A stretch of 57,303 nt of DNA from Gemmatimonadota bacterium (lineage in GTDB: Bacteria; JAAXHH01). Shown piece by piece: positions 2,170-16,239 of the stretch. The stretch covers positions 1-57,303 of the forward strand of contig VXWP01000033.1 of NCBI GenBank assembly GCA_009835325.1, read 5' to 3'. The position numbers were made by a program, and so were the translations under genes. The notes under the pieces are model-generated. The model was not told the DNA's origin and made no database searches. It was given only the letters and a program-made list of their open reading frames with translations. Numbering within the stretch: the first letter of the stretch is position 1; every line of letters starts with the position of its first letter.

Positions 2170-2904
2170 ATGCCCACGCGGTCCCCGCAGGAGACGCTGG
2201 AGGCGCTGAAACAGTTCGACACCCCTACGATCACCAACGTGGTGGCCACCTATCCCACCCATCCCCTCTGCCTCGGTCTATACAACCCGTGGGCGGTGAA
2301 CTGGTACACGGACCAATCCATTAAATGCATGTATCCCGAACTCGGGCGCACCGTGGGCTACGCCGTCACCTGCGTCTTCGGCCTGCCCGAGCCGGGTTTC
2401 AAGAACCTCTCCTTCATCGATGTCATCGACGCCCTGGACGAATCCCCCGGGCCGACGATTCTCGTGATCCGGCAGAATTTCCCCGAGGAGATCGCCGGAA
2501 AAGTGGGATTGGCGGGCGGGAACATGACGGCTTCCGCAAAGGCCGTGGGTTGCGTGGGCGTGGTTTCCAACGGACCGTCGCGGGACATACACGAGATCCG
2601 GCCGATGGAGGTCCAGTACCTGCTCAGCGGCGTCACGCCGGGCCACGGGGACCAGGCCGTGCACGCGGTGAACGTGCCCGTATCCGTGGGCGGCATGGAC
2701 GTGGCGCCGGGCGAGATCATCCACATGGACGAGAACGGCGCGTGCAAGTTTCCCGCCGACAGGATGGACGCGGTGCTCGAGAACGCCACCGCGCTGGCGG
2801 AGGAGGAAGAAGCACGCATCGATGCCTTCGAACGCGCCCGGTCGGCTGACGACGTCAAGGCGATCCTGGGCGGACACAGCTACGGCAAGAAAGAAGATGA
2901 ATAA
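2170..2904 (+). CDS. RraA family protein (dimethylmenaquinone methyltransferase-like / HMG-aldolase fold)
   Basis: The 244-residue product matches the RraA-like fold, whose members include pyruvate aldolases for 4-hydroxy-4-methyl-2-oxoglutarate and catalytically different homologues. Visible signatures are DTPTITNVV near the N-terminus, the central GGNMTASAKAVGCVG segment, and the SNGPSRD motif whose Arg-Asp pair normally contacts substrate and metal. The C-terminal VAPGEIIHMDENG corresponds to the usual PGD-IV-D-D-G motif. The start is set by GGAAGGAG 6 bases upstream of ATG 2170. The stop overlaps the next sulfatase start by one base (TAATG), so the two are translationally coupled. The family name is often mis-stated as a methyltransferase; a small-molecule lyase or decarboxylase role in the sulfatase pathway is more plausible, but the substrate is unknown. 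Confidence 0.85.
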   Translation: MPTRSPQETLEALKQFDTPTITNVVATYPTHPLCLGLYNPWAVNWYTDQSIKCMYPELGRTVGYAVTCVFGLPEPGFKNLSFIDVIDALDESPGPTILVIRQNFPEEIAGKVGLAGGNMTASAKAVGCVGVVSNGPSRDIHEIRPMEVQYLLSGVTPGHGDQAVHAVNVPVSVGGMDVAPGEIIHMDENGACKFPADRMDAVLENATALAEEEEARIDAFERARSADDVKAILGGHSYGKKEDE

Positions 2905-4385
2905 TGAAATGCGTATTCATCGTACTTGATACCGTCCGCCGGGACTACCTTTCAACTTACGGCAACGACTGGGTGCATACGCCCGCCCTGGACCGATTGG
3001 CCGAACGGGGCGTCGTTTTCGACAATCACTGGGTGGGCTCGCTGCCCTGCATGCCCGCGCGGCGGGAGTTCATGACCGGGCGGTACAATTTCATCTACCG
3101 GGGTTGGGGTCCCATCGAACCCTACGACGATACGCTGCCGGGCGAGTTGCGGAAGAACGACGTCTTCACCCACCTGCTGACCGATCATTACCACTACTTC
3201 GAACTCGGGGGCGAGAACTATCACACGGCGTTCAACACCTGGGACTTCTTCCGCGGCCAGGAGAACGACTGGTGGGCGTCCCACGTGGACCGCATGGCCC
3301 TGCCCGACTACCTGGGGCAACTCAGCCAGCAGAATTTCGGCAACCGCAAACTGCAGCAGCGCGAGGAGGACTTCTCCGGCCCGAAGACCGCGCAGGCGGC
3401 CATCGAGTGGCTGAAGACGAACCGGGCGTCCGACGACTGGTTCCTGCAGGTCGAGATCTTCGATCCCCACGAACCCTTCTACTGCACCGAGAAGTACCGG
3501 GCCATGTACGGCGACGATTACGACGGGCCTTTCTACGACTGGCCCAGCTACGACGAGGTCCACGAATCCCCCGAAGCGGTCGAACACATCCGGAAGTGCT
3601 ACGCCGGACTGCTCACGATGACGGACCACTGGGTGGGCCGGATATTCGATACGCTCGACGACCTGGGACTGTGGGACGACACGTTGGTCGTGTTCACGAC
3701 GGATCACGGGACCATGCTGGCGGAGCATGACTTCTGGATGAAGAACATCATGCCCCTGTACAACGAGATTGTCCGGATTCCGCTGATCGTGAGCCTGCCC
3801 GGCAACGAGCGGGCCGGCACGCGCACCGGAGCGCTCACGCAGACCATCGACCTGATGCCGACTTTTCTCGACTACTTCGATACCCCGCCGCCTCCCCACG
3901 TCCAGGGACGTTCCCTGCGGAAGGTGCTGGACGGCGACGGAGGCCGGAAGGACGGCATCTTCGGATATTTCGGGATGGCGATGAACATCACGGACGGAAG
4001 GTTCGTGTACATGCGCAACCCGGTCAACGAGGACGCGGGACCGCTGTATGCGTACACGGCCATGCCCACGGGCGGCTTGAACCGCTGGTATCCCAGGGAG
4101 GTGTACGACCGGGTCGAAACCGGCCGGTACTTCGGCCACACCTACAACCTACCGTTGTACAAAATCCCCACCGACGGGAAGGTCCCGCGGCACCACCCCG
4201 ACGAAGCGTCCTACGCGGGGCGGAACCAGCTGTTCGACGTCGCGGCGGACCCGGCACAGCAGCACCCTATAGAAGATCCGGCATTGGAAGCCCGGTTCAC
4301 AGAACGGATCGCCGGGCATCTGAAGGCCTGCGAGGCCATGCCCGAACAGTTCTCCCGCCTGGGCATCGACCCGCCAGGAGCGTAG
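2904..4385 (+). CDS. sulfatase (arylsulfatase/alkaline phosphatase superfamily), first of three
   Basis: This 493-residue protein opens with VFIVLDTVRRD, the metal-binding start of type I sulfatases. It carries the formylglycine site C49-M-P-A-R53 inside SLPCMPARREFMTGR, followed by the second metal motif TTDHGTMLAEHDFW. The Cys form of the motif needs conversion to formylglycine by an FGE or an anSME; an anSME gene lies downstream at 11577. There is no obvious signal peptide, so the enzyme is likely cytoplasmic, which suits intracellular breakdown of imported small sulfate esters. The start overlaps the RraA stop by one base. Substrate specificity cannot be read from the sequence. Confidence 0.93.
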   Translation: MKCVFIVLDTVRRDYLSTYGNDWVHTPALDRLAERGVVFDNHWVGSLPCMPARREFMTGRYNFIYRGWGPIEPYDDTLPGELRKNDVFTHLLTDHYHYFELGGENYHTAFNTWDFFRGQENDWWASHVDRMALPDYLGQLSQQNFGNRKLQQREEDFSGPKTAQAAIEWLKTNRASDDWFLQVEIFDPHEPFYCTEKYRAMYGDDYDGPFYDWPSYDEVHESPEAVEHIRKCYAGLLTMTDHWVGRIFDTLDDLGLWDDTLVVFTTDHGTMLAEHDFWMKNIMPLYNEIVRIPLIVSLPGNERAGTRTGALTQTIDLMPTFLDYFDTPPPPHVQGRSLRKVLDGDGGRKDGIFGYFGMAMNITDGRFVYMRNPVNEDAGPLYAYTAMPTGGLNRWYPREVYDRVETGRYFGHTYNLPLYKIPTDGKVPRHHPDEASYAGRNQLFDVAADPAQQHPIEDPALEARFTERIAGHLKACEAMPEQFSRLGIDPPGA

Positions 4386-4426
4386 GCAGGTCCATCGATC
4401 CGCTCGGAGCTTTGGATGGAAAGATC

Positions 4427-6223
4427 ATGAAGAAGACGCTAGTCCTTCGACGTTTCCCGGCGACGCTCCTGCTCGCCTTCGCGCTGATGTTCGTGAACTG
4501 CGGCGGCCAGCCTGCGCAGGACGATCCCGATGAAAGTGCTCCCGAGTTGTTCTTCGGCCAGACCGCGGAAATGAAGGAGGCGGCCCACGCCGCGCTGATG
4601 GAGCGCCTGCCCGACGACGCCGCGCCCCTGGAGTACCAGGTGTTCCGGTACATGGCCGCGGAACCCAAGAGCATGGACCAGGGCGTCTCGATCTACGTGG
4701 CGGGCGGAAGCGAGTTCCACTTCGAGCGTCTCGTCATGTTCGGACTGAACGGGGAGCTTATCCCCGGCGCGGCGCAGTCGTGGGAACCCACTGAGGACGG
4801 CAAGACCTGGACCTTTCACCTGCGCCGGGACGGCCGGTGGAGCGACGGCCGGCCCGTCACGGCCCATGATTTCGAATATACCTTCAAGCGGTTTCTCCAT
4901 CCCAACGCGGGCAACGTCTACGCCTTTCTCTATTACGACATCAAGGGCGCCCGTGCCTACAACCAGCGGGAAACGGACGACGTGAGCACTGTGGGCGTTA
5001 CGGCCCTGGACGACTACACCCTGGTCATCGAGACGGAGCAGTCCTGCGCCTTCCTGCCCCATATCACCGCCTACCTCACTTCCGCACCCGTCCCGCCCTG
5101 GCAGGTGGAGAAGTACGGGGATCAGTGGGCGCTTGCCGGCACCTGCCTGACCAACGGACCCTTCCAGCTCGAGACGTGGAAAACGGGCCAGTACATGACT
5201 TTCGGTCTGAACCCCCATTACACCGGATCCAATCCCGGTCATCTCCGCCAGATCGTCCGCATATTCAACGCCATGGTCGGATCGGCCAGCGCGGCGAACG
5301 ACATGGGACTACTGCCTTACGAGAACGACGAGATCGACGTGATCGACGTCAGCCCCATGGTCTACGGCGGCCTGCGTAACGACCCGGAGTGGAACGAACG
5401 GGCGTGGTCCTACGACCAGTTCACGACGATCTACCTGTTCTTCCGGACGCGCGAGCCCCCCTTCGACAACCTCAAGGTCCGCCAGGCCTTCGCCCACGCC
5501 ATCGACCAGGAGTCGCTGAACGAGACGATTCTCCAGGGCATGATGATCCCCGCCTACACCATGCTGCCGCTCCATTTCCCCGGCTACGTGGGTGACAAGT
5601 ACCGGGACCACCAGCGGTTCGACGTGGACCTCGCCCGGCAGCTGCTTGCCGAGGCCGGCTATCCGGAGGGCAGGGGATTCCCGCGGATGGATATATGGCT
5701 CGCCGACGCCACCCCCGCTTCCGCCATCAGCCAGGTGGCCCAGGCGATCCAGGAGATGCTCAAGGAGAACCTGAATATCCAGATCGGCATCCAGAACACC
5801 GAAGGAGCAGCGTACCGGTCGGCCATGTACAACTGGGAGTTTCCCATGAGCATCATCGGGTTCAACTACGACTTCCCCGATCCCCACAGCATGCTGGGCA
5901 TCATCTGGCGGTCCCAGCCCAGGGGCTACACGCGCCACGACTGGCTGAACCCGGAATTCGACCGGCTGATCGACGCGGCGGCCGGAGACCTGAACCACGA
6001 AGCACGCCTGGCGATGTACGACGAGGCCGAGGGGATACTCGCCTCCGAGGCCGCGGCCGTCTTCCTGTGGCATGTCAAGACCTACCAGTTGCGCAAGCCC
6101 TGGCTGAAGGGGTTCCGTGAAGACCGGTGGGGCAACTTCCCCAATTACCGGAACGCAAACACGTACTATGACCTCTACATCGGTGAAGAGGCCGTGGAAA
6201 GCGACCGACGCATTGACTATTAA
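4427..6223 (+). CDS. ABC transporter substrate-binding protein, family 5 (OppA/DppA-like) lipoprotein
   Basis: The roughly 598-residue protein has a lipoprotein-like leader: MKKTLVLRRF, a hydrophobic run, then FVNC with Cys25. The lipobox is imperfect because Asn sits at -1. The mature part has SBP_bac_5 hallmarks: a repeated account of LIPGAAQSW and the DGKTWTFHLRRDGRWSDG motif, DFEYTFKRFL, NGPFQL, and DNLKVRQAFAHAID. Such proteins bind peptides or other solutes in the periplasm and deliver them to an ABC permease. No permease or ATPase gene is in this window. A TTG at 4412 is an alternative start; ATG 4427 was chosen because it begins the typical Lys-rich leader. It sits between a sulfatase and a PhyH oxygenase, so it may capture the locus's substrate. 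Confidence 0.88.
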   Translation: MKKTLVLRRFPATLLLAFALMFVNCGGQPAQDDPDESAPELFFGQTAEMKEAAHAALMERLPDDAAPLEYQVFRYMAAEPKSMDQGVSIYVAGGSEFHFERLVMFGLNGELIPGAAQSWEPTEDGKTWTFHLRRDGRWSDGRPVTAHDFEYTFKRFLHPNAGNVYAFLYYDIKGARAYNQRETDDVSTVGVTALDDYTLVIETEQSCAFLPHITAYLTSAPVPPWQVEKYGDQWALAGTCLTNGPFQLETWKTGQYMTFGLNPHYTGSNPGHLRQIVRIFNAMVGSASAANDMGLLPYENDEIDVIDVSPMVYGGLRNDPEWNERAWSYDQFTTIYLFFRTREPPFDNLKVRQAFAHAIDQESLNETILQGMMIPAYTMLPLHFPGYVGDKYRDHQRFDVDLARQLLAEAGYPEGRGFPRMDIWLADATPASAISQVAQAIQEMLKENLNIQIGIQNTEGAAYRSAMYNWEFPMSIIGFNYDFPDPHSMLGIIWRSQPRGYTRHDWLNPEFDRLIDAAAGDLNHEARLAMYDEAEGILASEAAAVFLWHVKTYQLRKPWLKGFREDRWGNFPNYRNANTYYDLYIGEEAVESDRRIDY

Positions 6224-6270
6224 GGCGCCGGGGCGACAGGCACGCTTTGACCGAAGGATCGACTACTGAC

Positions 6271-7095
6271 ATGGAAAACGGACACCAGTACATCGAGATG
6301 ACCGATGCGCAGCGGGAACATATCGACCAGTACGGATACCTGGTTATCGAAGACGCCCTGCCTCCGGCGGTCGTCGGGGAGTTGAACGGGGCCATCGACG
6401 AAGTGTACGACCGGGCCCGGAAGGAAGGCACGCTTGGGAAAGGCGGCGATCTGAACATGCGGAACTGCATCGTGGCCCACGACGCCTTCCTGCAACTGCT
6501 GGACTGGCCGGCGACCATTCCCCTGGCCTGGGGCGCGCTCAGCTGGAACATCCAGATGATCACCTCCCACCTCATCGTACTGCCATCGGGACCGGAACCT
6601 ACCGAGGAGGCCAAGCGCGGACACGGCATGCACCGTGACGGCGGCCGGTCCTTCGTGGAAATGCAGGAACCCCATCCCCGCATCCTGCTGAAGATCGCCT
6701 ACGTGCTCAGCGACCAGACGGATCCTTCCTCCGGGGCCACTTCCCTGGTGCCCGGCAGCAACCGGATTACGGGGCAGCCGCCCAGGGACCCGGACACGGG
6801 ATGGCCCTATGGCGCCATCCAGATGAACCTGCCCGCCGGCAGCGCATTCCTGTTCGAGCAGCGCACATTCCACTGTATCGGACACAACTGGAGCGGCCAC
6901 GACCGTCGGACCATCTTCATGGGCTATGCGTACCGCTGGGTCAAGCCCATGGATTACATCCAGATGCCGAAGTCCCTCGTGGAACGCTGCTCGCCGTTGC
7001 AGAAACAGTTGATCGGCGAGGTGGGAGACGCCCTCAGCTACTACCTGCCGGAAGACGAGGACGTCCCGCTGAAGGCATTCCTCGCCGGGAAATGA
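6271..7095 (+). CDS. phytanoyl-CoA dioxygenase (PhyH) family Fe(II)/2-oxoglutarate-type oxygenase
   Basis: The 274-residue protein begins with an IDQYGYLVIEDALPP segment typical of the PhyH family. The metal-binding H121-x-D123 lies in HGMHRDGGRSF, the product-side SSGATSLVPGSNR follows, and a distal His lies in FHCIGHNWSGHDRR, with an Arg that would bind 2-oxoglutarate. Members hydroxylate CoA thioesters, small metabolites or phosphonates using Fe(II), O2 and 2-oxoglutarate. ATG 6271 is preferred; a TTG at 6247 would add 8 residues. It is 47 bases after the binding-protein gene and 9 bases before the next sulfatase, so it belongs to the same run. Its substrate is unknown; hydroxylating a carbon next to a sulfate or ether would fit the context. 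Confidence 0.88.
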   Translation: MENGHQYIEMTDAQREHIDQYGYLVIEDALPPAVVGELNGAIDEVYDRARKEGTLGKGGDLNMRNCIVAHDAFLQLLDWPATIPLAWGALSWNIQMITSHLIVLPSGPEPTEEAKRGHGMHRDGGRSFVEMQEPHPRILLKIAYVLSDQTDPSSGATSLVPGSNRITGQPPRDPDTGWPYGAIQMNLPAGSAFLFEQRTFHCIGHNWSGHDRRTIFMGYAYRWVKPMDYIQMPKSLVERCSPLQKQLIGEVGDALSYYLPEDEDVPLKAFLAGK

Positions 7096-7104
7096 TACCC
7101 GCCC

Positions 7105-8454
7105 ATGTCCAATGTCCTCCTGCTCATCTCCGACGAGCACAACCCTTTCTATTCCTCGGTCTACGGCCATCCTTTTGTTCAGACGCCAGCCATGGACCGT
7201 CTCGCGGCGAACGGGGTCGTCTACGATAGCGCCTACTGCCCGTCGCCCCTGTGCACACCCAGCCGGTCCGCCTTCATGACGGGGCGCAGAGTGCACGAGA
7301 TCCAGGCCTATTCCAACTGCATCCTCGGTGTCGAACCGGACATTCCCACCTACGGAGGCGCCTTGTCGGAACAGGGCGTATACTCCGTGCACGCGGGCAA
7401 GACACACGTCTTCGCACCGAGCGGTGAGTTGGGTTTCAGCGAGGTGCGCCTGGGCGGCAGGGAACGAGGCGCCGGCGATCCGGAAATCGGTCGTCGGCCC
7501 TTCCGGATCAGGCAGGCAGCCGCAGAACGGGCGGCCCAGTTCGGGGTAAAGGAGTCCCATCTCCGCCTCGACCTGGATCGCGTCGATGCGGCCGTGGACT
7601 GGCTGACGCATGTCGCGCCATCGCTGGGGCGACCGTGGACCCTCACGGTAAACATCATCCATCCCCATTTCCCCCATTACACCTCGCAGGAGCTGTGGGA
7701 TCTCTATTCCCAGGGCGGCGATCTGCCGGAATACGGGGTCGACGAGGATACCGCGAACCATCCCCGCGCCCGTGAAGTGCGCGAACATTTCCAAACGGAT
7801 CATTTCACCGAGGATCAGGTGCGGGGCCAGCGCCGCGGTTACCTGGCCTGCGTGACCTTCGTGGACCGGCAACTGGCGCGCCTGGTCGAGGCGCTGCAAG
7901 CAGCGGGGCTGTATGACTATACCAATGTTATCTACACGTCGGATCACGGCGAGATGCTCGGCAAGTTCGGCATGTGGTGGAAATGCTCCCTCTACGAAGA
8001 CGCAAGCCGCATTCCCTGCATCGCGGCGGGACCCGACTTCCCGCCCGGGCTGCGGGTTTCGACACCGGTGGACCTCCACGACGTCCAGGCGAGCCTCTTC
8101 GCGTCGACGGGCGCAGAACGGCCGGCAGACTGGGTGGGCCGTCCCCTGCAGCATGTGCCCGAGGACGATGATCAGCGCATGGTGTTCTCGGAATACCATG
8201 GCCATGGAGCCCGGCACAGTGCTTTCATGATCCGGAAAGGAAAATGGAAATATCTCCATCACATCGGCACGCCCCACCAGTTGTTCGATCTGGAAAGAGA
8301 TCCCGATGAACTTCGGAACGTGCATGAGGCGCACCCGGCGGTCGCTGCCGACCTGGAACGGGAACTCCGCCTAATCTGCGATCCAGAGACGGAGGACGAC
8401 CGCGCGGACCAGTTCATCGAGGCGCAGCTCGCGTCCATGGCGTCCGCCGGCTGA
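7105..8454 (+). CDS. sulfatase, choline-sulfatase-like type, second of three
   Basis: This 449-residue protein starts with NVLLLISDEHNP and has the formylglycine motif C50-T-P-S-R54 in CPSPLCTPSRSAFMTGR. The second metal site is YTSDHGEMLGKFGMWWKCSLYEDASRIP, close in layout to choline sulfatases and other small-substrate sulfatases. No signal peptide is visible. The C-terminal HHIGTPHQLFDLERDPDELRN motif is common to the family. It follows the PhyH gene by 9 bases and precedes the next gene by 46. It differs strongly in sequence from the other two sulfatases, so the three are probably not recent duplicates and may act on different esters. Confidence 0.93.
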   Translation: MSNVLLLISDEHNPFYSSVYGHPFVQTPAMDRLAANGVVYDSAYCPSPLCTPSRSAFMTGRRVHEIQAYSNCILGVEPDIPTYGGALSEQGVYSVHAGKTHVFAPSGELGFSEVRLGGRERGAGDPEIGRRPFRIRQAAAERAAQFGVKESHLRLDLDRVDAAVDWLTHVAPSLGRPWTLTVNIIHPHFPHYTSQELWDLYSQGGDLPEYGVDEDTANHPRAREVREHFQTDHFTEDQVRGQRRGYLACVTFVDRQLARLVEALQAAGLYDYTNVIYTSDHGEMLGKFGMWWKCSLYEDASRIPCIAAGPDFPPGLRVSTPVDLHDVQASLFASTGAERPADWVGRPLQHVPEDDDQRMVFSEYHGHGARHSAFMIRKGKWKYLHHIGTPHQLFDLERDPDELRNVHEAHPAVAADLERELRLICDPETEDDRADQFIEAQLASMASAG

Positions 8455-8500
8455 GTGAAGACCGCCGACAGACTGACCACCGCCCACCCAACGGAGACCG

Positions 8501-9910
8501 ATGAGCGAGAAACGACTGCTGGGCATCACCGTCCTGGCCGATTTCATCCTGAACGAAGGGGTGGAAGCCGTGCTGGACAACCTGGTGGACCGGGCGGGCG
8601 CCACGGCCGTGGCGGTGAATCCCACGGTGACCGCGCCGTCCGAGGAGGGCGTCGGTTCCTTCCAGCCGCCCAGCGACGCCGGCAGCAGTCCCCGCCTCTT
8701 CGACCGGCCGCTGTGGGGCCGACGTTCGCTTTGGGTCCGGAGTGCACCGAGTTACAAACCCCGTCTGTCGTATTATGCAGAAACCCCGTACAAGCCCCGT
8801 GAACCCAACGAACTGACGGACGCCTGCGGCGACCTGATCGAACGGTTCATCGACGCGGCGCTGGACCGTGGGCTCGAGGTCTATCTGCAGCTGAGCGGCG
8901 CGACACCGCCGGGCCTGTCGGACGAGGACCGGCCGCGAAGGCCGGACGGGGAGCTGCCGGACCGCATGGCCGACACGGGCTGCCTCGCCAGCGAGGCGAT
9001 CCGGGCTTTTATCGCCGCTTACGTGCGTGACCTGCTTGAACAGTATCCCCGCGTAACCGGCTTTCGCCCCGACTGGCCCGAGTATCCCTGTTACAAGCTG
9101 GACGAGGCCTTCCAGGACTTCAATCCCCAGGTGGCGCGGTGGGCCTCGGCCAACGGGTTCGACTTCGAAGCCATCCACCGGGACGTGCGGGCGGCCTACG
9201 TTTACCTGCACGGAAGGCTCGAAAACCGGGACCTGCTCGACCTCGGCGGCCCCGGCCGAGGCGCGGCGACGCTGGCCGCCGTATTCCGGTCCTTTCCCGG
9301 CATCGCGGAATGGCTGCGACTGAAATCCGCCTTGTCAGGCGACCTGCTGCGGCACTGGAGAACGGTCATCACGACGCACGGCGGTCCCGATAAGAAGCTA
9401 TCGGCCAACGCCTTCATGACGCCACTCACCTTGTGGACCGGCTTCGATTTCCGCGGCGCTCCGGAGACCTGCGACGCGGTGTCCCCCAAGCTGTATACCA
9501 TGCACTGGTCGGTCATGGTGGAATTCTGGGGAAAGGTGCTGCTGGAACATAATCCCGGCCTGGACGAACGGCTCCTGGTGCGTTCGCTCGCCCACCTCTT
9601 CGACCTCGGAGACGAAATCACGGCCACCCGGATCGACGATTACGGGTACCCCGATCCCGATGAGCCCCATCCTATCCCCGATGACGCCCAGCGGCGGCGC
9701 ATCGAGCAGGTCTGCGCGGAGGTGAACGGGCGCGCGCTCGTCACGCCACTCATGCACGGCTACGGCCCCCTGCATGATTTCGCCCGCCGTTTCCGGGTGG
9801 TGGCGGAGAGTCCGGCCGACGGCGTATGGATCAACCGGTACGGGTACCTGAGCGACGACAAGCTGGACGCGGTGGGGCGTATCTGGCGGCAGGCCCGTCG
9901 AGCATCTTGA
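8501..9910 (+). CDS. hypothetical protein, probable TIM-barrel, unknown function
   Basis: The 469-residue product has no signal peptide or membrane segment. Its layout suggests a TIM-barrel of glycoside-hydrolase or sugar-isomerase type: an N-terminal strand LLGITVLADF, a segment GLEVYLQLSG, and GFRPDWPEYPCYKLDEAFQDFNP, where acidic residues follow a strand end. LYTMHWSVMVEFWGKVLLEH and GVWINRYGYLSDDKLDAVG lie near the C-terminus. I cannot assign a reaction. It lies 46 bases after the second sulfatase and 69 bases before the ATG of the third, on the same strand, which argues for a role in the same pathway, for example on the desulfated product. Confidence 0.75.
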   Translation: MSEKRLLGITVLADFILNEGVEAVLDNLVDRAGATAVAVNPTVTAPSEEGVGSFQPPSDAGSSPRLFDRPLWGRRSLWVRSAPSYKPRLSYYAETPYKPREPNELTDACGDLIERFIDAALDRGLEVYLQLSGATPPGLSDEDRPRRPDGELPDRMADTGCLASEAIRAFIAAYVRDLLEQYPRVTGFRPDWPEYPCYKLDEAFQDFNPQVARWASANGFDFEAIHRDVRAAYVYLHGRLENRDLLDLGGPGRGAATLAAVFRSFPGIAEWLRLKSALSGDLLRHWRTVITTHGGPDKKLSANAFMTPLTLWTGFDFRGAPETCDAVSPKLYTMHWSVMVEFWGKVLLEHNPGLDERLLVRSLAHLFDLGDEITATRIDDYGYPDPDEPHPIPDDAQRRRIEQVCAEVNGRALVTPLMHGYGPLHDFARRFRVVAESPADGVWINRYGYLSDDKLDAVGRIWRQARRAS

Positions 9911-9979
9911 AAACGCGCCCTGGACGTGATCGGCCGGCTCCGGCGGCACATCGACGGCAGACCCGGTAGAGGAAACCCG

Positions 9980-11506
9980 ATGACCCGTCCCAACATCCTC
10001 TTCATCATGACGGACCAGCAGCGTTTCGATACGATCGCCGCGCTGGGCAACGAGCATATCTATACCCCCAACATGGACCGTCTCGTGCGGCGGGGCGTGT
10101 CCTTTACCCAGGGCTACTCGACCTGTCCTGTCTGCGTGGCGGCGCGGACGACCATCCGTACGGGATGCGATCCGCCCACGACGCGGGTATTCAGCAACGG
10201 CCGGTCCGCGCCCGTGCCCGGCCAGGCCGATACGCTCGAGGGCCGGTGCGGAGACTATCTTGCCCGTACCCTTTCGGCCGCGGGCTACCGGACCTTCGGC
10301 GTGGGGAAGTTCCACACCTTCCCGTGGAACGAGGACGTGGGTTATGCGTCCCAGCTCCACAGCGAGGAACTCTACGGCAGTGAGGAGCAGCGGCGCGGAG
10401 ACGCCTACGCGGGCTGGATCGCCCGCGAGCATCCGGATTTCGACTATATCGAAGCGCTCATGGGGGAGCGGACCGAGATGTACTACATGCCCCAGGCAAG
10501 CCCGCTGCCCGCCCACTTGACCGTGGAGTCCTGGGCCGCGGACCGCGCGATCGAGGCGCTAAGCGCGTTCGATGACCGGCCGTATTTCGGTTTCGTGTCC
10601 TTCATCGGTCCCCATCCGCCCTTCGCGCCGCCCGTGCCCTTCAACCGGATCTACGACCCCGACCGCATGCCGGGGCCCGTGTGCGGCGACCAGAACGTGG
10701 ACCACCTGGACGAGCAGATTCCCTTCATGAACCGGATCATCTGGGCCGATGAAATCAACGACGCGCTGACCCGCGTCCTCAAGGCCCGCTATTACGGAGA
10801 GATCACCTACATCGACGATTGCCTGGGCCGGATACTGGACGCCGTCGAGACCCGCGAGGACGCCGGCAACACCCTCATCTGCTTCTTCTCGGATCACGGC
10901 GACCACCTCGGGGATCATACCGCATGGCAGAAGGAGAGTTTCTTCGACGTCTCGGCGCGCGTGCCCTTCCTGGTAAGCTGGCCCGACCGCCTGCCGCGTG
11001 ACGTTCGACGAGACGACCTCGTTTGCCTGACCGACCTCTTCGGCATCGCTACCCACGCCGCCGGACAGCCTCAGGCGCGCGACGGCGTGGACGTGATTGG
11101 AGTGCTAGAAGGAACAGCCCCGCCCAGGGAGACCCTCTTCGGGTATTACGGCGAACCGGGTACGGACCGGTTCAAAATCATGGTACGAAGCGGCGATTGG
11201 AAGTATATTTACCTTGCGAACGGCGGCAGGGAGCAGCTGTTCAACACCGCCGAAGACCCGCCCGAAGTTACGAACCGGGCCACGTCCGACCGGGATGTCG
11301 CCGACGACCTGTACCGGCGGGGCGTGCAGGCTTGCGGCCATCCGGGCGCCACCGACGCTCTGGATGGCGACCGCCTGCGGTCCTTTCCCTATACGAAGTG
11401 GAAGGCCTCCCGTATCTACCAGTTCGACCGGTCGCGGGGCGTGCGGGGGTTTCCAGGTCATCCGCGCGAAGTGCTGGATCCGTGGATCCGGCACGGCCGG
11501 CAGTAG
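9980..11506 (+). CDS. sulfatase with C-x-A-x-R motif, third of three
   Basis: The 508-residue protein starts MTRPNILFIMTDQQ, the standard sulfatase opening, at ATG 9980 behind a GAGGA ribosome-binding site. Upstream in-frame starts from 9926 would add 18 unlikely residues. The activation site reads C52-V-A-A-R56 in CPVCVAARTTIRTG, so the usual Pro at the third position is Ala. Anaerobic sulfatase-maturating enzymes are known to accept C-x-A-x-R as well as C-x-P-x-R, which fits the anSME gene 70 bases downstream. The second metal motif FFSDHGDHLGDHTAWQKESFFD is intact. The enzyme is probably cytoplasmic. Its substrate is unknown. Confidence 0.92.
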   Translation: MTRPNILFIMTDQQRFDTIAALGNEHIYTPNMDRLVRRGVSFTQGYSTCPVCVAARTTIRTGCDPPTTRVFSNGRSAPVPGQADTLEGRCGDYLARTLSAAGYRTFGVGKFHTFPWNEDVGYASQLHSEELYGSEEQRRGDAYAGWIAREHPDFDYIEALMGERTEMYYMPQASPLPAHLTVESWAADRAIEALSAFDDRPYFGFVSFIGPHPPFAPPVPFNRIYDPDRMPGPVCGDQNVDHLDEQIPFMNRIIWADEINDALTRVLKARYYGEITYIDDCLGRILDAVETREDAGNTLICFFSDHGDHLGDHTAWQKESFFDVSARVPFLVSWPDRLPRDVRRDDLVCLTDLFGIATHAAGQPQARDGVDVIGVLEGTAPPRETLFGYYGEPGTDRFKIMVRSGDWKYIYLANGGREQLFNTAEDPPEVTNRATSDRDVADDLYRRGVQACGHPGATDALDGDRLRSFPYTKWKASRIYQFDRSRGVRGFPGHPREVLDPWIRHGRQ

Positions 11507-11576
11507 TCCCGGATTGGCGGCATGACGTCATGTCGCAGGTTCGTATCTGCAAGAACGAAAAGACCCAGGATTTACC

Positions 11577-12923
11577 GTGAACCCAGTCGACACAACCACC
11601 GCGGTCCCGGCATCGTCCATGCCCTCGGCCGGAGGAGATCCGGTCCCGGTCCCGGCGTTTCACGTGATGATGAAGCCCCGGGGGGCCATCTGCAACCTCG
11701 ACTGCAAGTACTGTTACTTCCTCGCCAAGGAGGATCTGTATCCCGGCAGCGGGTTCCGCATGTCCGACGATCTGCTCGAGGAATACACCAGGCAGTATAT
11801 CGAAGCCCAGCAGGTGCCGGAAGTCACTTTCGCCTGGCAGGGCGGAGAGCCCACCCTCATGGGCCTCGAGTTCTTCCAAAAGGCCGTCGAGTTCCAGAAG
11901 AAATACCAGAAACCCGACACGCGTATCTACAACTCCCTGCAGACCAACGGCACGCTCCTCGACGCGGACTGGTGCCGTTTCTTCCACGAAAACGACTTCC
12001 TGATCGGCCTGAGCCTCGACGGCCCCAAAGCGCTGCACGACGCCTACCGGGTCGACAAGGGCGGCAAGCCGACCTTCGACGCGGTGATGGGCGCGGCGGA
12101 GATGATGCAGGTCCATGAGGTCGAGTTCAACATCCTGACCACGGTGCACGCGGCCAACGCGGAACATCCAACCGAAGTCTATCGCTTCATGCGGGACGTG
12201 GTGAAGACGCGGTTCCTTCAGTTCATCCCCATCGTGGAACGGGACAACGACACCGGGTACCAGGAAGGCAACGAGGTGACGAAGCGGTCGGTGACGGGGA
12301 AGCAGTACGGCCGGTTCCTGATCCGGATTTTCGACGAATGGGTGCGCCGGGACGTGGGGAAAATGTACGTGCAGATCTTCGACGTGTCGCTCGCCGCCTG
12401 GTCCGGCCAGAGCCCGGGGCTGTGCATTTTCATGGAGACCTGCGGCGATGCACTCGCCCTGGAGCACAACGGGGACCTCTACGCCTGCGACCACTACGTC
12501 GAGCCGGACTACTTGCTGGGCAATATCACCGAGATTCCGATGATGGAGATGGTCCTGTCCGAGCAGCAACGGGCCTTCGGGCAGGCCAAGCTGGACACGC
12601 TGCCGCAGTACTGCCTGTCATGCGACGTGCGGTTCATCTGCAACGGGGGATGTCCGAAGAACCGCATCATCACGACGCCAGACGGCGAACCGGGCCTGAA
12701 CTACCTGTGCGAGGGGTACAAGGCCTTCTTCCACCACATCGACGGCCCCATGCGGTTCATGGCCAACGAACTGCGCCACAGGCGGGCTCCCGCCAACGTG
12801 ATGACGTACATCCACCGGAAGGAAGCCGAGCTCAGAAGGCAGAAGGCGTTCAAATCGGCGGGGAGAAACGACCCCTGTCCGTGCGGAAGCGGCCTCAAGT
12901 ACAAGCGGTGCCACGGCAGGTAG
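11577..12923 (+). CDS. anaerobic sulfatase-maturating radical SAM enzyme with C-terminal SEC-C motif
   Basis: This 448-residue protein would oxidise the active-site Cys of sulfatases to formylglycine using radical SAM chemistry. The [4Fe-4S] site is C39-x3-C43-x2-C46 in CNLDCKYCYF, followed by FAWQGGEPTLMG and LQTNGTLLD, typical of anSME. A SPASM domain for two further clusters is visible as GLCIFMETCG, LYACDHYVEP, YCLSCDVRFICNGGCPKN and YLCEGYKAFF. The extreme C-terminus has a SEC-C zinc motif C434-x-C436-x8-C445-H446, an unusual extra. Translation starts at GTG 11577. Three sulfatases with Cys-type motifs lie just upstream, so these are the likely clients. Substrate range and the role of the SEC-C tail are not known. 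Confidence 0.93.
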   Translation: MNPVDTTTAVPASSMPSAGGDPVPVPAFHVMMKPRGAICNLDCKYCYFLAKEDLYPGSGFRMSDDLLEEYTRQYIEAQQVPEVTFAWQGGEPTLMGLEFFQKAVEFQKKYQKPDTRIYNSLQTNGTLLDADWCRFFHENDFLIGLSLDGPKALHDAYRVDKGGKPTFDAVMGAAEMMQVHEVEFNILTTVHAANAEHPTEVYRFMRDVVKTRFLQFIPIVERDNDTGYQEGNEVTKRSVTGKQYGRFLIRIFDEWVRRDVGKMYVQIFDVSLAAWSGQSPGLCIFMETCGDALALEHNGDLYACDHYVEPDYLLGNITEIPMMEMVLSEQQRAFGQAKLDTLPQYCLSCDVRFICNGGCPKNRIITTPDGEPGLNYLCEGYKAFFHHIDGPMRFMANELRHRRAPANVMTYIHRKEAELRRQKAFKSAGRNDPCPCGSGLKYKRCHGR

Positions 12924-12992: not shown

Positions 12993-13646
12993 TCACATAT
13001 AGTAGCCGCGTTCCACCGCGAGGGTGAGGGACAGTTCGATGTCCGAGATCGCCCTGGACATGGCCTGGCCGATGAGGTCCAGCTTGCGCACCTGATCGAT
13101 GCGATCGGAGGCCTGAGCGAGTTCCCGCGCAGACAGGATCTCTTTGAAGAGGTTGCACGCGTGGGCGAGGTTGATGATCACGACGTCGCGCGGGCTGGGA
13201 ATCATATCGCTGAACAGCACTTCCATGATGCGTAGCTTGACTTCACGCTCGGCCGTTCCATCGATGATCGGATAGCGCCGCGACCGGAATACCCACAGGA
13301 ACTGGCCTTCTTCCTTTTTCAGGATTCCCCGTTCGACGAGCCGGTCTATGGCTGTCTCCCGGATGTCTTCGGCGCGGTCGACGACGTGCTCGATCCAGTA
13401 CCGCGCCCCGTGCGTTTCGGATGACGCCGCGATATCCGCCAGCACGGGGTCGAGAAGATTGTCTCCCAGGGGTTTCGAGTCCACGAGGACCAGCTTGTCG
13501 ACATCGGTATCGATACGGTTTTCGAGAGCGAGGTCCATCAACACGCCACCGGCGAGACCGTATCGTAACAGACGATCGGGCACGCCCACGAATTTCCCGT
13601 CGTCGTCGAGCATGAGCAGCATGATCTCTTCCGCGAATCTTAACAT
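12993..13646 (-). CDS. GOLPH3/VPS74 (GPP34) family protein
   Basis: The 217-residue protein has the GPP34 pattern: IMLLMLDDDGKF, then RYGLAGGVLMDLALENRI, then a VDSKPLGDNLLDPVLADI segment, and a helical C-terminus. In eukaryotes GOLPH3 binds phosphatidylinositol 4-phosphate on Golgi membranes. Bacterial and archaeal relatives exist, mostly in actinobacteria, and their function is poorly known. The start ATG has a strong GGGGAGA site 5 bases upstream. It is transcribed alone, convergent with the maturase gene (69 bases apart) and downstream of the TonB receptor on the same strand. A membrane-lipid-linked regulatory role is only an inference from the family. Confidence 0.82.
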   Translation of the reverse strand: MLRFAEEIMLLMLDDDGKFVGVPDRLLRYGLAGGVLMDLALENRIDTDVDKLVLVDSKPLGDNLLDPVLADIAASSETHGARYWIEHVVDRAEDIRETAIDRLVERGILKKEEGQFLWVFRSRRYPIIDGTAEREVKLRIMEVLFSDMIPSPRDVVIINLAHACNLFKEILSARELAQASDRIDQVRKLDLIGQAMSRAISDIELSLTLAVERGYYM

Positions 13647-13830: not shown

Positions 13831-16239
13831 TCAGAAATGGCGCGCAAGTTCCACGCCCCAGTAAGGCGGTTCGTTGACGAATCCGGTCAGGTTGTTGAAA
13901 TCGATGCCGCCGGTAAGCGATACGTCATCGAAGACGTTTCGGCCGACCAGGGAGATCTCCGTCCCGGTGTTCCCGAACAGATAGGAGAGGCGCACGCCGC
14001 ATTCCAGCAGCCGGTCGTCCTGGAATTCCACGGATTCGTAGAGAAAGAAGCGCACCGCGCTGCGGTAGGCCAGGTCGGCGGAGGCTACGAGAAAGGACCC
14101 GCCCGGCAGGGCCACCGGATAGCGCAGGGCCGCATCCGCGATCCATCGAGGCGCCTGGGGCAGCCCGTTGCCGTCGATCAGGACCGTACCGGGCTCCGGC
14201 CCCGGTGGATCCAGCACGGTGCACGGTGCGCCGCAGGGCTGCACGGCGAGTCGCTTGTCGTCGATGCGGGTATGATTGTAACTCAGGCCGCCCGTGACTT
14301 GTATCCCGCCCGGCCGCGCAAGGGCCACCTCCGCCTCGAAACCCCGTCCCAGGGTTCTGTCCGCGTTGACCAGCCGGTTGAAGTTGGTCTCGCCGCCTAC
14401 GGCGGTGAGTTGCTGGTTCCGCAGCCGGTAGTGGAACGCGGACAGGTCGAGGTGGAGCCGCCCGTCCCACAGGCGCATTTTGGCCCCGCCTTCGATGGAG
14501 TGTATCGTTTCCGTCCCGGCTATGGAAACCTCGTCGCCGAAGAGCAGGCGGCCCTGGATGCTGGGTGCGCGGAAACCCCGGGCGGCGCGCAGGTAGGTCT
14601 GGACCCGGGGCGACGCGGCATATCGCATGCTCAGGTCACCGCTCCAGGCGTTGTCGGTCGGACTGCGCTGGATGGGTCCGATCGTGCCGGCGCCGGTGAC
14701 CGCAGGCGCCTCGTCCCGCCACGCCGAGTAGTCTTTCGCGTCGCGGGAGAACCGGAGCCCCCCGGCGACCTCCAACGCGTCTCCCAGGTGCAGGGTGGAT
14801 GCGAGGAACGCGGCCCACGCCTCGGCCTCCTGGTGCTGCCGGGTGAATCCGTCGGAGGTCCCGCCTGAGAGCGTATCGTAGTTGTAATCCTCGATGTCCA
14901 CCGATTCGTTCAGGTAGTACAGGCCGATTTGGTAGTCCAGGGGCCGGTGTTCCTGGCTCACCAGGCGTAACTCCTGGCTGATCTGGCGCAGGAAGGGGAT
15001 GCCCCCGGAGGTTTCGGAGGGGAAGGGAATAACCCCCGGTCCGCTCGGTGGGCTGAATACGGCGCCGAAGCCGCCGTCGATATCGCCTCGTGAGAAGCTC
15101 TCCAGCCGTTCCAATCCGGTCAGGGACACGAGTTGGTGCCGGTCCATCTGGTACCGCAACTCCATGGACATGCCGTAGGCGCGCAGTTCCTGGCTGTTGC
15201 GTCCGTCGATTGCGATCCGGTCCCGGGAGAAGCCGCTCACCAGTCCGCCGCGTCCGGGTTTAATCGCGTTGGCACGGAACGCCCGCGCGGAGCCGTCAAA
15301 GTTGCGGGCATGGAGCTTGACCAGCGATTCGAAATCCGGCGACGGTTTCCAGCTCAACTGGAGGCGGCCGGCCAGTTCCCGGTATCCGGCTATGGCTTCA
15401 TTCGGACCGTCGTGTTCGTTTTCCACCCAGTCGTCCCGCCGTTGCAACAGCACCGAGAGACGCGCTGTGAGCCCGGAGGATCCGAGCGGTCCTGATACCG
15501 CTCCCTCGAAAACGGCGCTGTTGAAACGTCCGTAACCCAGGCGGCCGAAACCCCCAGGCGTTTCGGTCGGCCGCGCCGATTCAAGCTTGATGATGCCCGC
15601 CGGCGTGTTCCGGCCGAACAGGGTCCCCTGGGGGCCGCGCAATACCTCGATCCGGTCCAGGTCGAAGGCGGGATAGCCCTTCAGCATGACGTTTTCCAGT
15701 ACGATGCCGTCATAGACCACGGAAACGGGTTGCGAGGCGTTCAGGTCGAAGTCCGTATTGCCGAGTCCCCTTATGTAGATGCGCGGAAAAACCCGGCCGT
15801 AGGAGGACTCCAGCTGCAGGCTGGGCACCCGGTTCGAAAGGAATCGAAGGTCCATGCCGGAAGCGCGAAGTGCGGTGGACTTCGCTTCCTGGATAGTGGA
15901 CAGGGACAGCGGGACTTCGAAGGCTGGCTGCGCACGCTTGCGCGCCGTGACCACGACTTCCTCCATCACGATGGCGGGTTCATCGGGCGGTCTCGTGCTT
16001 TCTGTGCCTGCCTGTTCGGACTGCCCGGGAGATTCGGACGGGCTCGGTTCTGCCAGTTCATCGGACTCGGCGGACTGGGCAGGATCCTGGGGCGCCGGTC
16101 GGTTCTCCTGCGCGACTGACGCGCCGGCGGTGAAGACGAATGCCAGGCACAGAAACGTACGCAGTACAGTGGAGACGACCGCATCCGATGCAAGCGGCAG
16201 CATAGCGTTAAGGGAAGGGTACAAGATGCCGGTTTTCAT
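13831..16239 (-). CDS. TonB-dependent receptor
   Basis: The 802-residue protein has an N-terminal hydrophobic leader ending near GASVAQE and a Pro/Glu-rich linker. A TonB-box-like MEEVVVTARKR follows and then the plug domain, with the family motif RGPQGTLFGRNTPAGII and IYIRGLGN. The rest is a 22-strand-type barrel with alternating aromatic residues, ending in aromatic Phe (ELARHF) as outer-membrane barrels do. The long form resembles receptors for siderophores, B12 or complex organics; the ligand cannot be read. A second in-frame ATG is 12 codons downstream. It is divergent from an outer-membrane barrel gene at 16521 with 281 bases between them, which suggests co-regulation. Confidence 0.93.
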   Translation of the reverse strand: MKTGILYPSLNAMLPLASDAVVSTVLRTFLCLAFVFTAGASVAQENRPAPQDPAQSAESDELAEPSPSESPGQSEQAGTESTRPPDEPAIVMEEVVVTARKRAQPAFEVPLSLSTIQEAKSTALRASGMDLRFLSNRVPSLQLESSYGRVFPRIYIRGLGNTDFDLNASQPVSVVYDGIVLENVMLKGYPAFDLDRIEVLRGPQGTLFGRNTPAGIIKLESARPTETPGGFGRLGYGRFNSAVFEGAVSGPLGSSGLTARLSVLLQRRDDWVENEHDGPNEAIAGYRELAGRLQLSWKPSPDFESLVKLHARNFDGSARAFRANAIKPGRGGLVSGFSRDRIAIDGRNSQELRAYGMSMELRYQMDRHQLVSLTGLERLESFSRGDIDGGFGAVFSPPSGPGVIPFPSETSGGIPFLRQISQELRLVSQEHRPLDYQIGLYYLNESVDIEDYNYDTLSGGTSDGFTRQHQEAEAWAAFLASTLHLGDALEVAGGLRFSRDAKDYSAWRDEAPAVTGAGTIGPIQRSPTDNAWSGDLSMRYAASPRVQTYLRAARGFRAPSIQGRLLFGDEVSIAGTETIHSIEGGAKMRLWDGRLHLDLSAFHYRLRNQQLTAVGGETNFNRLVNADRTLGRGFEAEVALARPGGIQVTGGLSYNHTRIDDKRLAVQPCGAPCTVLDPPGPEPGTVLIDGNGLPQAPRWIADAALRYPVALPGGSFLVASADLAYRSAVRFFLYESVEFQDDRLLECGVRLSYLFGNTGTEISLVGRNVFDDVSLTGGIDFNNLTGFVNEPPYWGVELARHF

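Follow-up and report, generated by a model that had tools for sequence, protein, structure and literature searches.

An operon-like block of three formylglycine enzymes, a glycosidase-like barrel and the only anSME-type maturase found in a Gemmatimonadota genome

Results

An eight-gene block

We suggest that a same-strand run of eight genes, filling positions 2170-12923 of a 57,303-nt contig of a Gemmatimonadota bacterium (VXWP01000033.1, assembly GCA_009835325.1; the whole contig is called the window below), forms an operon-like catabolic unit for a small molecule bearing a sulfate ester or a similar group, a proposal to which we give an even chance of being right. Scans for open reading frames (ORFs) and protein families place the following genes in the block, in this order:

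2170-2904, + strand: RraA-like protein (PF03737, 73.9 bits against a cutoff of 24.5), overlapping the start of S1 by 1 nt
2904-4385, + strand: S1, formylglycine-type hydrolase of the sulfatase superfamily, motif CMPAR (PF00884, 141 bits)
4412-6223, likely start ATG 4427, + strand: OppA-type solute-binding lipoprotein (PF00496, SBP_bac_5, 260 bits)
6247-7095, + strand: PhyH-family Fe(II)/2-oxoglutarate dioxygenase (PF05721, 56.7 bits)
7105-8454, + strand: S2, probable sulfatase, motif CTPSR (best PDB match choline sulfatase 6fny, E 2.5e-53)
8501-9910, + strand: barrel protein, a glycoside-hydrolase-like TIM barrel of no named family (predicted model)
9926-11506, likely start ATG 9980, + strand: S3, motif CVAAR (PF00884, 139 bits; best PDB match 7oz8)
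11577-12923, + strand: anSME, radical-SAM sulfatase maturase with SPASM domain and SEC-C tail (TIGR03942, 495.9 bits against a cutoff of 349.45)

The extent, the common strand and the short gaps of this locus had already been proposed in a sequence-only reading of the same DNA, and they hold: computed with the likely starts 4427 and 9980, the intergenic gaps are -1, 41, 23, 9, 46, 69 and 70 nt. The families it named are likewise present (PF03737, three PF00884, SBP_bac_5, PhyH, an above-cutoff anSME and a protein without Pfam or NCBIfam match). It had counted nine genes; we count eight, a ninth conserved gene (1408-1941) sitting behind a 228-nt gap. All eight are under purifying selection, with Nei-Gojobori omega of 0.05-0.15 against the six full-length loci of the same genus. 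Between positions 1200 and 13800, terminator-like matches are rarer than in shuffled sequence (5 against 8.1), and both of those on the + strand fall within S2 and S3. A sigma-70-like site lies before the RraA-like gene (2053-2081), and such sites are not commoner than in shuffles (2 found, 2.9 expected). We infer from this layout that the eight genes are co-transcribed. The idea of a plasmid-borne block was dropped, there being no near match in PLSDB.

A single maturase found for the whole genome

The anSME has PF04055 and PF13186 matches and carries the CxxxCxxC signature as CNLDCKYC. It is the only TIGR03942 match in its own Latescibacterota-type genome (3.68 Mb in 119 contigs), in which a search for the formylglycine-generating enzyme (FGE) gave no PF03781 match. 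The same genome holds 30 PF00884 matches, several of them fragments, and three of the 30 fall within 8.1 kb in the block. Once fragments C14 and C71:105, which miss the motif region, had been left out, the motif residue could be scored in 28 sulfatases: it is Cys in 25, Ser in 0 and neither in 3. Because it is the sole maturase found, with no FGE and with Cys-type motifs in 25 of 28, the anSME most plausibly acts as a general activator of the sulfatases in this cell; the earlier notion of a maturase belonging to this locus alone was therefore rejected. A second maturase may have been missed in the assembly, since the genome is rated 95% complete.

The genus repeats the pattern, with exactly one above-cutoff anSME in 12 of 12 genomes (and weaker, below-cutoff matches in five); FGE-type PF03781 matches occur in two of the 12 and in all 4 genomes scanned from other genera in the phylum. 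A haem-copper oxidase subunit I gene and complex I genes are present in the genome and suggest aerobic respiration, so that a maturase of the oxygen-independent type would be the sole one found in an apparently aerobic cell.

The three sulfatase-family proteins that have neither Cys nor Ser at the formylglycine site are L103 (C82), L106 (C86) and L087 (C25), and those on C82 and C86 share with S1 an Asp at the site of the sulfatase Lys113.

Sulfatase expansions have been published for this group (parts of PMC7081726 and PMC5596340). The genome also encodes 108 PhyH, 24 SBP_bac_5 and 6 RraA-like matches, the first of these an expansion like that published for Poribacteria (a passage in PMC3909097). 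Outside the block, a PhyH gene lies within 3 kb at 12 of 27 sulfatase places, where 3.7 are expected and none of 5000 random placements, made with approximate contig sizes, reached 12. Such proximity hence characterises the genome at large, not this locus in particular. Solute-binding proteins neighbour PhyH genes no more often than by chance (5 of 23, 3.2 expected).

Three divergent formylglycine enzymes

The three PF00884 proteins had been called unrelated C-type sulfatases. They are in fact homologous, at identities of 27-28% (S1-S2), 23-24% (S1-S3) and 25% (S2-S3), and each has a Cys-type C/S-x-P/A-x-R motif, so that the C-type assignment stands. None has a signal peptide visible by eye, and we take all three to be cytosolic.

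S2 is probably a cytosolic sulfatase related to choline sulfatase, keeping 8 of 9 active-site residues tested against that enzyme. Choline sulfatase itself was considered for S2 and rejected: TIGR03417 gives 254 bits against a cutoff of 433.45, and none of the tested choline-pocket residues (Trp129, His145 and Glu386, named in parts of PMC9063841 and PMC5870055) is kept, in a pairwise alignment whose confidence is low in that stretch. S3 is a probable sulfatase as well. It keeps GKFH, shares with S2 the GKxH element (of Lys113/His115 type), the metal Asp-His and the distal Lys, and matches S2 at 10 of 11 scored positions, differing only in the motif, where Ala replaces Pro.

S1 is the doubtful member. 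It keeps the formylglycine Cys, the metal Asp-His and the second Lys, and reads TDHYH where sulfatases have GKxH, with Asp at the position of Lys113. All 11 further loci compared have the same Asp; L121 and L122 among them hold one and the same gene, from G013, a genome of another genus in the same family. A passage in PMC5066984 reports that, of 4058 FGly-sulfatases, 94% have Lys and 87 have Asp at this position; the Asp thus weakens the assignment of S1 as a sulfatase without excluding it. A structure model of S1, built from seven near-identical sequences, reached a pLDDT of only 36.1. Instead of three sulfatases, the locus should be said to encode two probable ones, S2 and S3, and a formylglycine hydrolase, S1, whose preferred ester is uncertain.

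The best solved match of S1 is the phosphonate monoester hydrolase (PMH) 2vqr, aligned over three short stretches only. This match and the missing Lys113 make it conceivable that the block is a phospho- or phosphonoester unit, in which S1 would be a PMH or a phosphodiesterase and PhyH a phosphonate dioxygenase; a phosphonoacetaldehyde hydrolase gene near the G013 anSME (TIGR01422, 335.7 bits, cutoff 220) and two poribacterial PhyH genes linked to 2-aminoethylphosphonate use (in part of PMC3909097) point the same way. We nevertheless consider such a unit improbable. Three PDB entries named sulfatases score nearly equal to 2vqr, and S1 is without the PMH Tyr105/Thr107 pair, having Asp-x-x-His there (residue table in part of PMC4014121). 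It scores 155 bits with the NCBIfam PehA model, whose cutoff is 900, and nearly the same, 150 bits, with an arylsulfatase model. The conserved active sites of S2 and S3 also speak for sulfate, no HD-domain PhnZ-type partner was found among the block proteins scanned, and the G013 phosphonatase gene lies on the opposite strand and has no counterpart among the window ORFs scanned.

A barrel protein of no named family

The barrel family is the least-known part of the locus. Its member here has no Pfam, NCBIfam or PHROG match and 0 PDB-sequence matches up to E 10, and the Pfam, NCBIfam and PDB sequence searches did not place it in GH153. An AlphaFold2 model from 43 sequences (pLDDT 93.7) predicts a TIM barrel of the glycoside-hydrolase type, which most resembles in fold the GH153 domain at the C terminus of PgaB (Z 27.2, root-mean-square deviation 3.3, 322 aligned residues), the GH-like domain of Cwp19 (Z 24.1, deviation 3.3, 291 residues), GH164 and GH42. 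By strand count, strand 4 of the model ends in D191, with E194 three residues on, and strand 7 has His419, not Glu; D191 and E194 are invariant in 43 of 43 sequences. In PgaB (D474; part of PMC5933820) and Cwp19 (D196; part of PMC5765458) an acidic residue likewise stands at the end of strand 4. On this model the barrel would be a protein of carbohydrate-active type.

Binding protein, dioxygenase and RraA-like protein

The outline of the pathway in the sequence-only reading, an operon-like set to capture and break down a sulfate-ester small molecule, is plausible; its dedicated maturase is not supported. The binding protein, with OppA (8are) as its best PDB match, begins with a hydrophobic stretch ending in Cys that, by eye, is of the lipoprotein type. 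The PhyH protein has the HxD...H triad (H129, D131, H209), invariant in 8 of 8 sequences, and its closest solved relative, TlxI, is a weak one (E 3.9e-10). The RraA-like protein is a probable class II pyruvate-type aldolase or decarboxylase: it contains an Arg-Asp pair (SRD), which we take as the equivalent of the essential Arg-123 and metal-binding Asp-124 of HMG/CHA aldolase (part of PMC5065237). It falls below the equivalog cutoff for HMG/CHA aldolase itself (TIGR02798, 46.5 against 304.5 bits) and has weak PDB matches to 5x15, 1j3l and 3noj.

Conservation in relatives

The near relatives are labelled Candidatus Latescibacterota or 'Gemmatimonadetes' metagenome-assembled genomes in their records, and several of them presumably come from sponges, to judge by the isolate labels. 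Six full-length genus loci carry all eight genes in order, two more (L009 and L035) being contig fragments; in one locus, L008, S3 is split across two reading frames. Loci and genomes overlap (L005 with G006, L011 with G013) and are not independent counts. Of 16 genomes from the phylum, 11 have S1 at E <= 1e-100, and the two genus members that lack it, G005 and G009, have the genus's most fragmented assemblies.

Random scattering of the genes in relatives did not occur. In G013 the pieces keep their order, spread over two contig ends and interrupted by insertions: the end of C41 carries the upstream gene, RraA, S1, the solute-binding protein, an amidohydrolase fragment and a C-terminal remnant of PhyH, and the end of C48 carries a PhyH remnant, a gene resembling outer-membrane proteins (OMPs; below the Pfam cutoff), S2, the barrel and S3, the anSME following some 4.6 kb later. 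Beside this anSME (L011:8693-9520, L011:11248-12423) are the phosphonoacetaldehyde hydrolase mentioned above, which passes its cutoff, and a galactonate-dehydratase-like enolase, which does not.

The arrangement in G013 raises the possibility that two units stand side by side by history, one for sulfatase activation (anSME with or without S2, barrel and S3) and a separate transport and aldolase set (RraA, S1, binding protein, PhyH). That the two halves lie on separate contig ends would fit such an origin, as would the extra genes between and beside them, the 4.6 kb of other genes before the anSME, a genus synteny that runs past the block and an anSME that is the sole maturase found for the whole genome. 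However, the same PhyH C-terminal remnant ends both contigs, in matching order, so that C41 and C48 probably join there, and the spacing in the window is operon-tight throughout. We regard two historical units as somewhat unlikely.

The barrel outside the family

One contig scan found barrel homologues at 60 loci in several phyla, their records being labelled Latescibacterota, Gemmatimonadetes, Planctomycetes, Caldilineaceae, other Chloroflexi, Actinomycetota, Spirochaetes, Kiritimatiellia, Lentisphaera and Oceaniovalibus, the last of which we take to be an alphaproteobacterium. G012 and G014 gave weak matches, as did G013 besides its main one (E 5e-6 to 4e-4, 22-28% identity), and these were treated as chance. 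Setting aside 9 of the 60 (near relatives and L011) leaves a distant set of 51 loci, in which PhyH lies within 5 kb of the barrel in 7, RraA in 2, and SBP_bac_5 and anSME in none. Beyond the family the eight genes do not occur as a set, and of the eight only the barrel was traced there.

Two barrel contexts recur, in 5 of the 51 distant loci altogether. The order sulfatase, barrel, TctC, TctA is found in Kiritimatiellia (L059), Lentisphaera (L060) and Oceaniovalibus (L062); the sulfatase directly adjoins the barrel in L059, other genes intervene in L060 and L062, and L062 also carries a gene of the altronate/galactarate dehydratase family. In two Caldilineaceae loci (L023, L028), RraA, an aldehyde dehydrogenase and the barrel occur together, with enolase-superfamily genes around them. 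These neighbours were partly confirmed by Pfam in L060, L062 and L023 and otherwise rest on home-made hidden Markov models. At a second sulfatase locus of the genome itself (C107; L086:8219-12039), two zinc dehydrogenases, an RraA, a PadR regulator and an HpcH-type aldolase precede a sulfatase among the genes scanned, the aldolase gene abutting the sulfatase gene. The neighbours of barrel and sulfatase hint at an acidic or sulfated sugar-type substrate.

They bear also on a plainer explanation, namely that the block serves ordinary sulfur scavenging, with sulfate freed from mixed esters as a sulfur source and the neighbouring genes unrelated. A sulfur-source reading of the sulfatase expansion in putative PAUC34f bins, with 102 genes in one bin, is given in a passage of PMC5596340. 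A few further loci nevertheless show aldolase and barrel genes close to sulfatases or to the barrel, and three different formylglycine enzymes with a binding protein in one operon would suggest a carbon source; scavenging alone strikes us as very improbable.

Flanking genes

Genes beside the block include the following:

1408-1941, + strand: conserved upstream gene of no known family (177 aa), 228 nt before RraA, syntenic
12993-13646, opposite strand: GPP34-domain gene, directly downstream of anSME
13831-16239, opposite strand to the block: TonB-dependent receptor

The upstream gene has no Pfam, NCBIfam or PHROG match. It stands before RraA in each of the six full-length loci of the genus and also in G013, where its 86% identity makes it the best conserved of the nine genes when the two genera are compared. 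Its omega is 0.04-0.08 in five loci and 0.92 against the very close L051, where there is almost no synonymous change. The GPP34 gene too is present in all six loci.

Discussion

We propose the following scheme, whose substrate class and reaction order we infer. The OppA-type lipoprotein would capture the probable substrate, a sulfated or acidic sugar derivative or a short glycoside, for import by a permease whose gene would lie elsewhere. Within the cytosol, S2 and S3 would remove sulfate and S1 would cut a sulfate or a phospho- or phosphonate ester; the barrel would cleave a glycosidic-type bond, PhyH would oxidise a C-H bond, perhaps in an O-demethylation, and RraA would split a keto acid. 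The anSME would convert the active-site Cys of S1-S3 to formylglycine and, being the sole maturase found, would also serve the other sulfatases of the genome.

A number of observations weigh against a single pathway of this kind. The co-occurrence in related genomes that the sequence-only reading proposed to look for is real, with all eight genes ordered in six loci, but the flanks (oxidoreductase, GPP34, TonB-receptor, OMP and M1-peptidase genes) are present in all six as well; equally conserved flanks make genus synteny weak evidence, and we have not accepted it as proof of a pathway. PhyH as an indispensable step is not supported, since it is a remnant in G013, where the other seven genes keep 62-84% identity. 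Among solved structures the binding protein is closest to oligopeptide binders, and Pfam scans found no permease among 23 window ORFs within the first 30 kb. S1 may act on something other than sulfate, and S2 has Glu in place of Gln15.

The distant barrel loci add to these doubts. A sulfatase lies within 5 kb of the barrel in only 14 of the 51, and just 3 sulfatases lie within 1 kb; the bins that follow hold 9 (1-2.5 kb), 5 (2.5-5), 3 (5-7.5) and 4 (7.5-10). Of these 24 sulfatases within 10 kb, 14 fall within 3 kb, a weak excess (binomial p 0.037) in bins that were chosen after a first look and over loci some of which are near-identical and so not independent. Enolase-superfamily genes, present in 3 of the 51, are not denser near the barrel.

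Weighed against these points, the operon-like catabolic unit remains the reading that we put forward. The locus is a compact set that joins three divergent formylglycine enzymes to a carbohydrate-type barrel of an unnamed family, itself found near sulfatases in a few unrelated phyla, and all the sulfatase activity of the cell probably depends on the anSME gene of this block. Such a locus could define a new enzyme family and a likely substrate class. For the published sulfatase expansions of PAUC34f/Latescibacteria-type bacteria, one study gives mostly annotations such as 'arylsulfatase A' or 'choline-sulfatase' (part of PMC5596340). More speculatively, the barrel could be a new, apparently intracellular glycosidase family whose substrate, a sulfated acidic sugar brought in from outside, is also processed by RraA-type aldolases and by sulfatases of the cytosol. 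The sole maturase in the same operon of these Latescibacterota would then tie the activation of every sulfatase in an apparently aerobic cell to one substrate; this bolder version we think unlikely.

Comparison with known systems

By the SusC/SusD-type definition, the block is not a polysaccharide utilization locus (PUL). It resembles the sulfated-glycan PUL-type loci of marine Bacteroidetes and of Planctomycetes-Verrucomicrobia-Chlamydiae (PVC) bacteria in combining several S1-family sulfatases with a glycosidase-like protein, a protein for uptake and an enzyme that may act on sugar acids. It differs in that a Pfam scan of the ten proteins that make up the block and its edges found no SusC/SusD pair, in its apparently cytosolic sulfatases, in uptake through an OppA-type lipoprotein, and in the presence of PhyH, RraA and an embedded single anSME.

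Among individual enzymes, S2 aligns over 407 residues with the choline sulfatase BetC of Sinorhizobium meliloti (SmCS; 6fny, 6g5z) and keeps the equivalents of D14, C54, N75, K102, H201, D296, H297 and K309. In the SmCS pocket W143, H145 and E386 are replaced, and W129 and Y123 fall in a gap, in the low-confidence part of the alignment, which ends before the C-terminal oligomerisation tail of SmCS. With the PMHs (2vqr, 2w8s; SulfAtlas S1_0), S1 shares the formylglycine Cys, the metal Asp-His and the second Lys, whereas at the Lys113/His115 site it has Asp-His and the PMHs have Tyr105/Thr107. The barrel is like PgaB (GH153) and Cwp19 in fold and, by strand count, in the acidic residue of strand 4; it differs from them in its 10-14% identity, in lacking a strand-7 Glu (H419, again by strand count) and in being a stand-alone, apparently cytosolic protein.

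As to activation, the closest parallel is with bacteria in which one anSME is thought to serve many sulfatases, namely the Kiritimatiellales strains F1 and F21 and Bacteroides thetaiotaomicron (part of PMC6388578). In the PVC data set of that source 5 of 2040 sulfatases are Ser-type. F1 and F21 are strict anaerobes and also carry 20 and 11 FGE-domain genes; here we find no FGE, and a haem-copper oxidase gene is present. Finally, the PhyH-family 2'-O-methyl nucleoside demethylases (FJS/PHYHD1; part of PMC12709175) are related to the PhyH protein of the block at the family level, and they provide a precedent for O-methyl removal.

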